35,317 nucleotides of DNA from Novosphingobium sp. (lineage in GTDB: Bacteria; Pseudomonadota; Alphaproteobacteria; Sphingomonadales; Sphingomonadaceae), in NCBI GenBank assembly GCA_020853995.1, contig JADYXV010000352.1, forward strand, positions 1-35,317, given 5' to 3'. Shown in pieces: positions 1,227 through 5,943 of this stretch. The translations under genes were made by a program, and so were the position numbers. The first letter of the stretch is position 1; each line of letters opens with the position of its first letter. The notes beneath the pieces were generated by a model. That model was not told the origin of the DNA, ran no database searches, and saw nothing but the letters and a program-made list of their open reading frames with translations.

Positions 1227-1616
1227 TCAGGCGGGCGCGGCCTCATCGGTAGGAGGGTTCAGGCGGAATTCCTCGACAGGAACACCGCCGATCACGTGTT
1301 CCTGGATGATCCGCTCCAGCACGGGCGGATGGCACGAATGATACCAGACATTGTCGGGGTAAACGACGGCGACCGGCCCGACCAGGCACACCCGCAGGCA
1401 GCCTACCTTGTTGCGCAGAATGCCTTGATTGCCGCCAAGGCCCAGTTCGGACAGGCGTTTTTTAAGGAAATTCCACGCTTCTTCGGTTTCATCGCGGGGC
1501 GCGCATTTGTGCTTGTCTGCGCCTGCACAGATCAGGATGTGGCGCTTCATCGCAAAGCCGCCAAGCTTTTTGAGCGCCTGCTCTGCCAGAGCCAGCATTT
1601 TTGCAGGGTTGGTCAT
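1227..1616 (-). CDS. (2Fe-2S) ferredoxin domain protein, thioredoxin-like fold
   Basis: [16 protein letters not shown]...[24 protein letters not shown] pattern with four cysteines. Confidence 0.85.
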
Positions 1617-1628
1617 TTAGAGCAAAAA

Positions 1629-2078
1629 TCAGCCGCGCTTGCCTGCGATCCGGGCGATTTCTGCTGACACCATCTTTTCGACCATGGCCGGAAGGTTGGC
1701 CTCCAACCAGTCGGACAGCATCGGACGCAGCATTTCGCGGACCAGACCTTCAAGCGAGGTTTCGCCCGAGCGCACGATTTGCGGGGCGACACCGGGCTGC
1801 GACAGCATCGACAAAGCGGCGAGCGATTCGCGCATGGATGCGGCGGTCGTATCTGCGATCAGGCCCTGATCTTCATCGTGGCCTTCTGTGTCACCGGCAG
1901 CTTCCGTCAATTCAAGGACTTCGACAGGAGACGGTGGAGCTGGCTCTACCGGTTCAGCGCGTGAACGCTCTTGCACGGTTTCGCTACGGGTCAGTGCTTC
2001 GGCACGGCTATCGCGCGCGATGACTTTCTTGATCGATTCGAGGATTTCCTCGACGGATGGTTCGCCAACCTGGCGCAT
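1629..2078 (-). CDS. popZ: PopZ/DUF2497 polar-organising protein, possible independent internal translation start within the tolC ORF
   Basis: ATG at 2078 (MRQVGEPSVEEIL) with GGGGAG 8 nt upstream on the minus strand; same frame as tolC. Confidence 0.65.
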   Translation of the reverse strand: MRQVGEPSVEEILESIKKVIARDSRAEALTRSETVQERSRAEPVEPAPPSPVEVLELTEAAGDTEGHDEDQGLIADTTAASMRESLAALSMLSQPGVAPQIVRSGETSLEGLVREMLRPMLSDWLEANLPAMVEKMVSAEIARIAGKRG

Positions 2079-3575
2079 TGAAGCTGCTCCCCGAAAGTCC
2101 CTGACACCGATTCTGTTCGACGGAACCTGTGCTGGTGCGATTGTCGCATTCTGCGCTGGTGTGTCAACGGTACGTGTTGATACGGCGACCGGATCGGGGT
2201 CGCGGTCCCAATCGAACACGCGACGCCGCACCCGGTCATAATTGGTCTGCGGATCATACAATGCGCCGCCATCCAGCCCAAGGTCCTGTGCCTGTGCGCG
2301 GCCCATTGCCGCCAGCAGGTTGAACCCGGCCACATAGGCATTGCGCCGCGCCGTGACGAGTTGCACTTGCGCGCGCAGCAGTTCCTGCTCGGCATCAAGA
2401 ATGTTCAGGATCGTACGGTTGCCCACCGTATTTTCCGCGCGCACGCCTTCAAGGCTGAGCGCGGCGGCTTCTACGGCGGTCTGGTTCATTGCGATGATTT
2501 CGTTCGCCGCGCTCCACGAGGCAAAGGACGAGCGCACCGATGCGATGACTTCGCGTTCCACGGCGATTTCCTGTTCCAGCGTGGCAGATTCGCGTGCCTG
2601 CGCCTGACGAACTTGTGCAGCCGGAGCGCCGCCCTGGAACAGCGGGATCGAAACGCTGACGCCTGCCTGGGCCGTCGTCGCGCGCTGCTTGAAAGATCCC
2701 CCTCCGGCCCCGGCCAACGTGCCCGCCGTGTCCTGATAACTTCCCTGAGAGCTTAACGATACCGTTGGCAGTTTTGCTGCATCGGCAATTTTCACATCAT
2801 AACCCGCCGCTTTGCTGCGCTCGCGCGCGGCAAGCAGATCGGGGTTGTTCTCCAGTGCGAAGTTCACAGCTTCGTCCGGCGTTGCGGGAAGGCCGGGCAA
2901 AGGTGGTGGCGGTGCAAGATCAACCGGCGCTTTGCCGACGATCTGGATATAGCGTTCACGGCTGGCGATCAGGTTGACTTCGGCATTGCGCAAATCACCA
3001 CGCGCCAGCGCCAGACGGGAATCCGATTGGGCAACGTCGGTGCGGGTAAGATCGCCAATTTCGTACCGGTCACCCGTCGCCTTGAAGTTGACGTCGAGAA
3101 CTTCGACGTTGTTGCGGCTGAGGCCGACAATCGCGCTATCGCGGATCACGTCCATATAGGCACCGACAACTTGGGCGAACACGCCCGATTCCGTGGCCCG
3201 CAAATCTTCCTGGCCCGCTTCGACGCGGGTCTTGGCTGCACGGATCGAATTTTTTACAGCGCCGCCTGAGTAAACCGGAATGCCCAGGCTGACGTCGACG
3301 CTCTTCGAGCTGTCAAGCAGCACGAACGATAGCGGGTTTTGCCGCAGAAATCGTGTGTAGTTCGCCTGCCCCGAAAGGCTGGGCAAAGCCCGCGCACGTG
3401 CCAGCGGCACGCCTTCATCCGTCGCCCGCTGCGTGGCCCGCGCGCCTTGCAGAGTCGGGTTTGTGTTGTAGGCACTGACGAGAGCCTCGCGCAGATCATC
3501 TGCCAAGGCAGGTGTCGACACCGCGAGGGCGGCGCTGGTCGTCAGTAAAAGGCACAGAGCCTTCAAGGGCGGCAT
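1629..3575 (-). CDS. TolC-family outer membrane efflux protein, in-frame with a C-terminal PopZ/DUF2497 domain
   Basis: Signal peptide and TolC repeats (DLREALVSAYNTNPTLQGARA..., VGNRTILNILDAEQELLRAQVQLVTARRNAYVAGFNLLAAMG) followed without a stop by MRQVGEPSVEEILESIKKVIARD...LVREMLRPMLSDWLEANLPAMVEKMVSAEIARIAGKRG. Confidence 0.85.
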   Translation of the reverse strand: MPPLKALCLLLTTSAALAVSTPALADDLREALVSAYNTNPTLQGARATQRATDEGVPLARARALPSLSGQANYTRFLRQNPLSFVLLDSSKSVDVSLGIPVYSGGAVKNSIRAAKTRVEAGQEDLRATESGVFAQVVGAYMDVIRDSAIVGLSRNNVEVLDVNFKATGDRYEIGDLTRTDVAQSDSRLALARGDLRNAEVNLIASRERYIQIVGKAPVDLAPPPPLPGLPATPDEAVNFALENNPDLLAARERSKAAGYDVKIADAAKLPTVSLSSQGSYQDTAGTLAGAGGGSFKQRATTAQAGVSVSIPLFQGGAPAAQVRQAQARESATLEQEIAVEREVIASVRSSFASWSAANEIIAMNQTAVEAAALSLEGVRAENTVGNRTILNILDAEQELLRAQVQLVTARRNAYVAGFNLLAAMGRAQAQDLGLDGGALYDPQTNYDRVRRRVFDWDRDPDPVAVSTRTVDTPAQNATIAPAQVPSNRIGVRDFRGAASMRQVGEPSVEEILESIKKVIARDSRAEALTRSETVQERSRAEPVEPAPPSPVEVLELTEAAGDTEGHDEDQGLIADTTAASMRESLAALSMLSQPGVAPQIVRSGETSLEGLVREMLRPMLSDWLEANLPAMVEKMVSAEIARIAGKRG

Positions 3576-3580
3576 AAGCC

Positions 3581-4204
3581 TTAGAAACTCCAGCTCTTGG
3601 GAGCTGCAAATTCGGGCAGGACCGCAAAGTCAGCTTCGCCCAAGGCAGTCGGGACGACACGTCCGGCAGCTTTGCGGGCCAAGGCGAGCCGCGTCACATT
3701 ACGCTCAACCAGACCGGTCACCACGCGGCCATCATCGGCCAGAAAAGCGCAAAGCTGATCGGGCAAAACTTCGGCAGCGCCATCAATCAGGATGAGCGTG
3801 AACGGACCGCCCTCTGCAGCGGCTAAATTGGCGGCGCGGGTAACGTTGCCGGAAAGCTGTGCGGCGAGTGCAGCCAAATATCCGTTGCCCGAAATTACCA
3901 GCACGCTGTCGGCCTTTGCCGGTTCAGCGGCTTCGAGCATTTGTCCGTACGTCAGCGCGGGCGACAGCACTGTGCCATCGCCCAAGGGCAAGGCGCGATC
4001 GGCATAGGCCACCGCGCGGCGTTCTGCGGGGACAAAGTCTTCGCGCGGCACTTTGGCAAATGCGGCAAGAATTGCGGGCGAATTCACGCCGGTTACGCGA
4101 AGCTGGCTATCGATCATTGCGCGGCGGGCAGTCAGCATCTCAGCCGATGCCGGGCGATCTTCAACCACGGTCATTTCAACCCTCATCTTCCGATAAACTG
4201 GCAC
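3581..4204 (-). CDS. Protein-L-isoaspartate O-methyltransferase family protein, apparently shortened or degenerate
   Basis: MIDSQLRVTGVNSPAILAAFAKVPREDFVPAERRAVAYADRALPLGDGTVLSPALTYGQMLEA is PCMT-like; SAM motif I region altered (VLVISGNGYLAALAAQL). True start is probably one of the in-frame downstream Met codons. Confidence 0.8.
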   Translation of the reverse strand: MPVYRKMRVEMTVVEDRPASAEMLTARRAMIDSQLRVTGVNSPAILAAFAKVPREDFVPAERRAVAYADRALPLGDGTVLSPALTYGQMLEAAEPAKADSVLVISGNGYLAALAAQLSGNVTRAANLAAAEGGPFTLILIDGAAEVLPDQLCAFLADDGRVVTGLVERNVTRLALARKAAGRVVPTALGEADFAVLPEFAAPKSWSF

Positions 4205-4335
4205 GGCGTGTAGGCGCGGCCATCAACATCGCCAACGCCTTAGAATATCGACTTGTGCTTTCCAAGGGATTTGCATGTCGATTATCGAAGCGTAAGGGGC
4301 GTTGGCAGTTTCTCTAGGACTTGGAGCGAAGACCG

Positions 4336-5859
4336 ATGGCGGAAATGGTGACGATCAGGCAGGAAGATCTGATCGAAAGCGTGGCTGATGCCCTTCAGTA
4401 CATCAGCTATTTCCATCCGATGGATTACATCCGCGCGCTGGGCGATGCCTATGAGGCCGAACAGGGCCCGGCCGCCAAGGACGCGATTGCGCAGATTTTG
4501 ACCAACAGTCGGATGTGCGCCGAAGGCCACCGCCCGATCTGTCAGGACACCGGCATCGTCAACGTGTTCATCGAATGGGGGCAGAATTGCCGCCTCGAAT
4601 CAGACCTTTCCTTGCAGGACGTGGTCGATGAAGGCGTGCGCCGCGCCTATCTGAACGCTGATAACAAGTTGCGCGCATCGGTGCTGGCCGACCCTGCGTT
4701 CACCCGTCGCAATACGAAAGACAATACGCCCTGCGTGCTTCACGTAGAGATGGTCAAAGGCAACAAGGTTTCGGTCGATGTGGCTGCCAAGGGCGGCGGA
4801 TCGGAAAATAAATCCAAGTTCAAGATGATGAACCCCAGCGATTCGATTGTCGATTGGGTGGTGGAAATGCTGCCGCAAATGGGCGCTGGCTGGTGCCCGC
4901 CGGGCATGTTGGGCATCGGCATTGGCGGCACGGCGGAACATTGCGTGCTGCTGGCCAAAAAGGCGCTGATGGAGCCGATCGACATGGCGCAGTTGAAACT
5001 GCGCGGGCCACAGACCGACATTGAGCGCATGCGCATCGAAATCTTCGACAAGGTCAATGCACTCGGCATCGGTGCGCAAGGGCTGGGGGGGCTTTCCACC
5101 ATCCTCGACGTCAAGATCATGGACGCGCCCTGCCATGCTGCGGGCAAGCCTGTGGGCATGATCCCGAATTGCGCCGCCACGCGCCACGCGCACTTCACGC
5201 TGGATGGTTCGGGGCCAACCTATCTGGAACGGCCCAAGCTGGATGAATGGCCGCAAGTGCACTGGGCGCCCGATTCTGCGGCCAAGCGCGTGAATCTCGA
5301 TACGCTGACGCCAGAAGAGGTGCAGGGCTGGAAGCAGGGTGACCGCTTGCTGCTCAACGGCAAGATGTTGACGGGCCGCGATGCCGCGCACAAGCGTATC
5401 AAGGACATGCTGGCAAAAGGCGAGGAGCTCCCCGTCGATTTCAAGGGCCGCGTGATTTACTATGTCGGCCCGGTCGATCCGGTGCGTGAAGAAGTGGTTG
5501 GGCCGGCTGGTCCCACCACCGCCACGCGGATGGACAGCTTCTCTGATCTGATGCTCGACCTTGGCCTGCTGGCCAGCGTCGGCAAGGCGGAACGCGGCCC
5601 AGCGGCCACGCAGTCCATTGCCAAGCACAAATCGGCCTATCTGATGGCGGTTGGCGGGGCGGCCTATCTGGTCGCGCGCGCGATCAAGGAATCCAAAGTC
5701 GTCGGCTTTGAAGACCTTGGCATGGAAGCGATCTATGAATTCACGGTCGAGGATATGCCGGTGACCGTGGCCGTCGATAGCGAAGGCAACAACGTCCACC
5801 AGTTGGCCCCGCTGGTGTGGAAAAAGAAGATTGCGGACGAGGGCTTGTTGCCCGCGTGA
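4336..5859 (+). CDS. Class I fumarate hydratase (Fe-S)
   Basis: RPICQDTGIVNVFIEWG, GGGSENKSKFKMMNPSDSIVDWVVEMLPQMGAGWCPPGMLGIGIGGTAE; ATG start inside the longer TTG-initiated ORF. Confidence 0.95.
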   Translation: MAEMVTIRQEDLIESVADALQYISYFHPMDYIRALGDAYEAEQGPAAKDAIAQILTNSRMCAEGHRPICQDTGIVNVFIEWGQNCRLESDLSLQDVVDEGVRRAYLNADNKLRASVLADPAFTRRNTKDNTPCVLHVEMVKGNKVSVDVAAKGGGSENKSKFKMMNPSDSIVDWVVEMLPQMGAGWCPPGMLGIGIGGTAEHCVLLAKKALMEPIDMAQLKLRGPQTDIERMRIEIFDKVNALGIGAQGLGGLSTILDVKIMDAPCHAAGKPVGMIPNCAATRHAHFTLDGSGPTYLERPKLDEWPQVHWAPDSAAKRVNLDTLTPEEVQGWKQGDRLLLNGKMLTGRDAAHKRIKDMLAKGEELPVDFKGRVIYYVGPVDPVREEVVGPAGPTTATRMDSFSDLMLDLGLLASVGKAERGPAATQSIAKHKSAYLMAVGGAAYLVARAIKESKVVGFEDLGMEAIYEFTVEDMPVTVAVDSEGNNVHQLAPLVWKKKIADEGLLPA

Positions 5860-5943
5860 TGGCTGCGGCCTGATTGCAATCGATAAACCGCATATCCGGC
5901 CCGACCACCGTTCTGGTGCGTCGGGCCGTTCGCGTTTAGGCGT

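Follow-up and report, generated by a model that had tools for sequence, protein, structure and literature searches.

TolC-type proteins are generally understood to have a C-terminus that is part of their periplasmic equatorial region (PMC8277102), and PopZ works with cytoplasmic partners that include ParAB and the ZitP zinc finger (PMC5182065). A described parallel to the predicted product studied here is Bucl8 of Burkholderia, a TolC-like protein whose C-terminal region is collagen-like and which has been studied as a fibrinogen binder; it shows that long C-terminal additions are possible on TolC-like proteins (PMC8277102). The locus lies in a stretch of 35,317 nucleotides (hereafter the window; contig C352) of a Novosphingobium draft assembly of 2.93 Mb, comprising 402 contigs and 78.8% complete. 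Like Bucl8, its open frame joins a TolC-family protein to a long C-terminal addition, but the addition in Bucl8 is collagen-like and unrelated to PopZ. The window shares gene order, TolC C-terminal tail and popZ start context with the tolC-popZ (OEP-DUF2497) gene pair of Sphingomonadaceae, whereas in the window alone the tolC stop has become a sense codon and the frame has shifted into that of popZ. A literature search returned no report of a TolC-PopZ fusion and nothing on the tolC-popZ pair or on stop loss.

The minus-strand ORF at 1629..3575 starts with ATG, has zero internal stops and encodes 648 aa, laid out as a TolC-family protein of 485 aa, a 14-codon linker and a PopZ/DUF2497 protein of 149 aa. 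Re-reading thus upheld the 648-aa TolC-then-PopZ frame of the preliminary description and added its strand. The tolC gene proper (2121..3575, minus strand) runs for 485 codons to the normal stop position, as judged from the protein family matches and from the end codon of relatives. Two stretches of the ORF match OEP of Pfam (PF02321, E = 3.7e-63), TIGR01844 type_I_sec_TolC of NCBIfam scores above its cut-off (291.5 bits against 225), and the N-terminus, MPPLKALCLLLTTSAALAVSTPALA-DD, resembles by eye a Sec signal peptide. The linker (2079..2120, minus strand) includes the former stop and corresponds to intergenic DNA in relatives, as seen from their stop-to-ATG gaps. The popZ gene (1629..2078, minus strand) has its own ATG, and residues 571-644 of the ORF match DUF2497 of Pfam (PF10691, E = 5e-24, 85-90 bits against a cut-off of 27). 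Its score for PopZ_fam of NCBIfam, 98.7 bits, lies below the cut-off of 125, so the product is best called a DUF2497/PopZ-like protein, and PopZ is used here only as a short name. The omega values of 0.057 for TolC and 0.24 for PopZ indicate that both are under purifying selection. Among close relatives, the middle of PopZ (window 1880-1960) varies by in-frame indels; both ends do not.

Upstream, ending 5 nt before the tolC ATG, lies a gene of the protein-L-isoaspartate O-methyltransferase family (PCMT; 3581..4204, minus strand; PF01135, E = 9.5e-16), and a PCMT-like gene also precedes tolC in L063. The downstream neighbor (1227..1616, minus strand) begins 12 nt past the popZ stop and encodes 129 aa with no significant Pfam match; in L031 and L063, popZ is followed by a similar protein.

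Among the junctions read and the matches listed, the fusion is peculiar to this genome within its genus. The tail of the ORF was matched in 193 of 196 genus genomes, and every relative with both parts aligned carried, among the matches listed, at least one stop between tolC and popZ; the fusion was absent from all other genus genomes read at the junction or among the matches listed. Junctions were read directly, first in the relatives' loci and then in 124 non-redundant loci from Sphingomonadaceae and near kin, and the two genes are separate in all but one of the latter. In relatives, a median of 48 nt separates the tolC stop from the popZ ATG. In close relatives the position of the tolC stop is constant, unlike the frame relation of the two genes, which takes all three values across the 124 loci (56, 42 and 26, in a sample biased toward frame 0 by the ranking of full-length matches at the top). 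Replacing the stop by a sense codon would yield an in-frame fusion in 31 of 123 relatives, so that a small lesion suffices, and the occurrence of all three frame relations means that read-through is not conserved. A programmed stop read-through pair was therefore ruled out by the frame offsets and by the minority of loci open in frame. The preliminary description had suggested that the locus might make two products, TolC-PopZ and PopZ; with one fused genome in the genus and the genes kept apart in relatives, a meaningful two-product locus was not borne out.

A wider scan of about 400 family and 400 order genomes uncovered, among the matches listed, one further unbroken TolC-PopZ frame, G455:C287 (L158:1-2655), which runs through TolC and PopZ for 885 codons without a stop. 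It comes from a draft of another Sphingomonadaceae genus (77% complete, roughly 390 contigs). As in the window, TolC and PopZ share one open frame, but the cause is a frameshift inside the TolC tail rather than a lesion at the stop: the normal tail and its TAG are still legible in the +1 frame, which makes the event independent of that in the window. Judging from this reading of its frames, the G455:C287 fusion is an independent accident or error. Constant separation of the genes in relatives, which the preliminary description had named as a finding that would tell against its proposal, thus holds in the genus comparison, and the exception is this one frameshifted draft. No closed genome in the family and order scans had a TolC-PopZ fusion among the matches listed. 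Taken across genus, family and order, the matches listed, with their single independent frameshift case, rule out a conserved family of TolC-PopZ fusions.

Three other candidates were rejected. Listed open-frame lengths may run through stops, and direct reading of the junction was decisive for G017 and G175, which appeared fused from those lengths and have stops between the genes; in G484, a TGA separates them. A search of viral contigs for the junction pattern of the window gave no match.

The nearest relative, Novosphingobium sp. 32-60-15 (L075/G109), is ~94% identical in nucleotide sequence over most of the window and 92.5% over the first 5.9 kb, and its best protein segment is 97% identical to that of the window. 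G109 also has ~570 nt that the window lacks, in the interval that separates the ORF at 4321-5859 from the gene after it (window 5850-5880). Alignment with L075 placed the lesion at 2115..2120 (minus strand), where the window has TCGAAC and L075 has TAAAA. The window junction reads TCGAACAG, and the stop codon site is CCG TAA in L075 and CCG TCG in the window (ACACAGCTTCCG TAA AAAGAATCGG against GCACAGGTTCCG TCG AACAGAATCGG), a difference of one additional nucleotide, placed at 2119, and two substitutions. L074 (strain AAP83) likewise reads CCGTAAAAAGAATCGG, which makes TAA the probable ancestral state, and the TolC of close relatives stops at the same codon after the tail TVDTPAQ(N/D)ATI...P*. 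Loss of one stop codon, as first proposed, was therefore nearly right: the stop is indeed lost, but the frame has shifted as well. The accompanying observation that the other two frames have no close stop near the junction proved accurate, the nearest upstream stops lying at -103 and -344 nt relative to the EPSVEEIL motif of PopZ. The 8-mer TCCGTCGA is repeated, with one copy at the lesion (2124) and another within popZ (2057); template switching via this repeat could be involved, a hint for which 8 nt is too short to support a claim.

The start signals of popZ are intact. Direct reading agreed with the preliminary description in placing an internal ATG at 2078..2076 and GGGGAG at 2092..2087 (feature 2087..2092, minus strand), with a spacer of exactly 8 nt. 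Both the ATG and this Shine-Dalgarno-like site are identical in the window and L075, and a purine-rich core occupies the Shine-Dalgarno position in 109 of 112 relatives. Given this conservation, separate synthesis of PopZ is expected, and the earlier suggestion that it is made from the internal start appears probable. In addition, the source assembly (79% complete) contains one DUF2497 gene, the popZ of the window, which leaves the internal start as the necessary source of PopZ. The 89 nt past the lesion (window 2026-2114), which span the popZ Shine-Dalgarno site, start and first codons, match L075 exactly, against a synonymous divergence of ~0.31 in tolC; this identity may reflect either strong constraint or local exchange.

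In our view, the fusion most likely reflects a single mutational event or a mistake in the draft assembly, and not a new kind of protein. Our preferred reading, to which we assign a probability of about 0.68, is that an ordinary Sphingomonadaceae tolC-popZ pair underwent a small complex mutation in this lineage that fused the frames, with PopZ still produced from its own start and the TolC extension incidental. One added base and two substitutions would have overwritten the tolC stop and brought tolC in frame with popZ. Initiation at tolC would then give TolC with a 163-residue C-terminal extension, which would be exported to the periplasm along with TolC and would probably be harmless or trimmed, and initiation at the intact popZ Shine-Dalgarno site and ATG would give normal cytoplasmic PopZ. 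Since the clients of PopZ are cytoplasmic (PMC5182065), a copy sent to the periplasm would be misplaced, and PopZ is not known to have a role there. This reading is favored by the separate genes of relatives, the intact popZ start, the purifying selection on both genes and the precedent of Bucl8.

The main alternative is that the draft is locally wrong in its assembly or consensus, and that the organism carries tolC with its usual stop, apart from popZ. The lesion is known from a single draft assembly, and that assembly is fragmentary; three differences within six bases, exactly at the stop that close relatives keep, would be unusual for a single mutation; the sole other listed fusion, G455:C287, also lies in a fragmentary draft, stems from a frameshift and likewise fits error; and no closed genome is fused among the matches listed. 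Against this, the same alignment extends through both flanks of the lesion, where nothing suggests a chimera, and ~35 kb compared with the 94%-identical relative contain no other frame-breaking indel clearly within coding sequence. The other coding-sequence indels relative to G109 are net multiples of three (249-268, 1930-1953 and 21318), and those remaining are intergenic or at the extreme ends of called ORFs (11013, 20479 and 26988), where the gene boundary is uncertain. A generally poor consensus is thus unlikely, although a local error may have occurred at one site of the fragmentary draft. Judging from these alignments, we rank a consensus error below a real mutation in likelihood, with odds at the junction of about three to one for a real change.

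It is improbable that the fusion has been selected, with TolC-PopZ anchoring or regulating something in the periplasm, or acting as a dual-topology protein, and with the internal start supplying PopZ as well. The frame is open, both domains look intact and constrained, and the window and L075 agree at all 89 nt round the PopZ start despite the divergence of tolC; but the fusion is found in one genome only, the frame relation is not conserved in relatives, the known partners of PopZ are cytoplasmic (PMC5182065), and the lone DUF2497 gene of the assembly still obliges PopZ to use the internal start. Less probable still is a stop-loss allele fixed in the species that yields cytoplasmic PopZ together with a TolC trimer whose three exported PopZ tails assemble with one another in the periplasm and gather TolC into clusters.

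The window data demand no new mechanism, and the locus illustrates that a striking domain fusion in one genome can amount to a single stop-codon lesion between neighboring genes. If the allele is real and fixed, it would offer a natural test both of how well TolC tolerates a sizeable addition at its C-terminus and of translation from internal starts.
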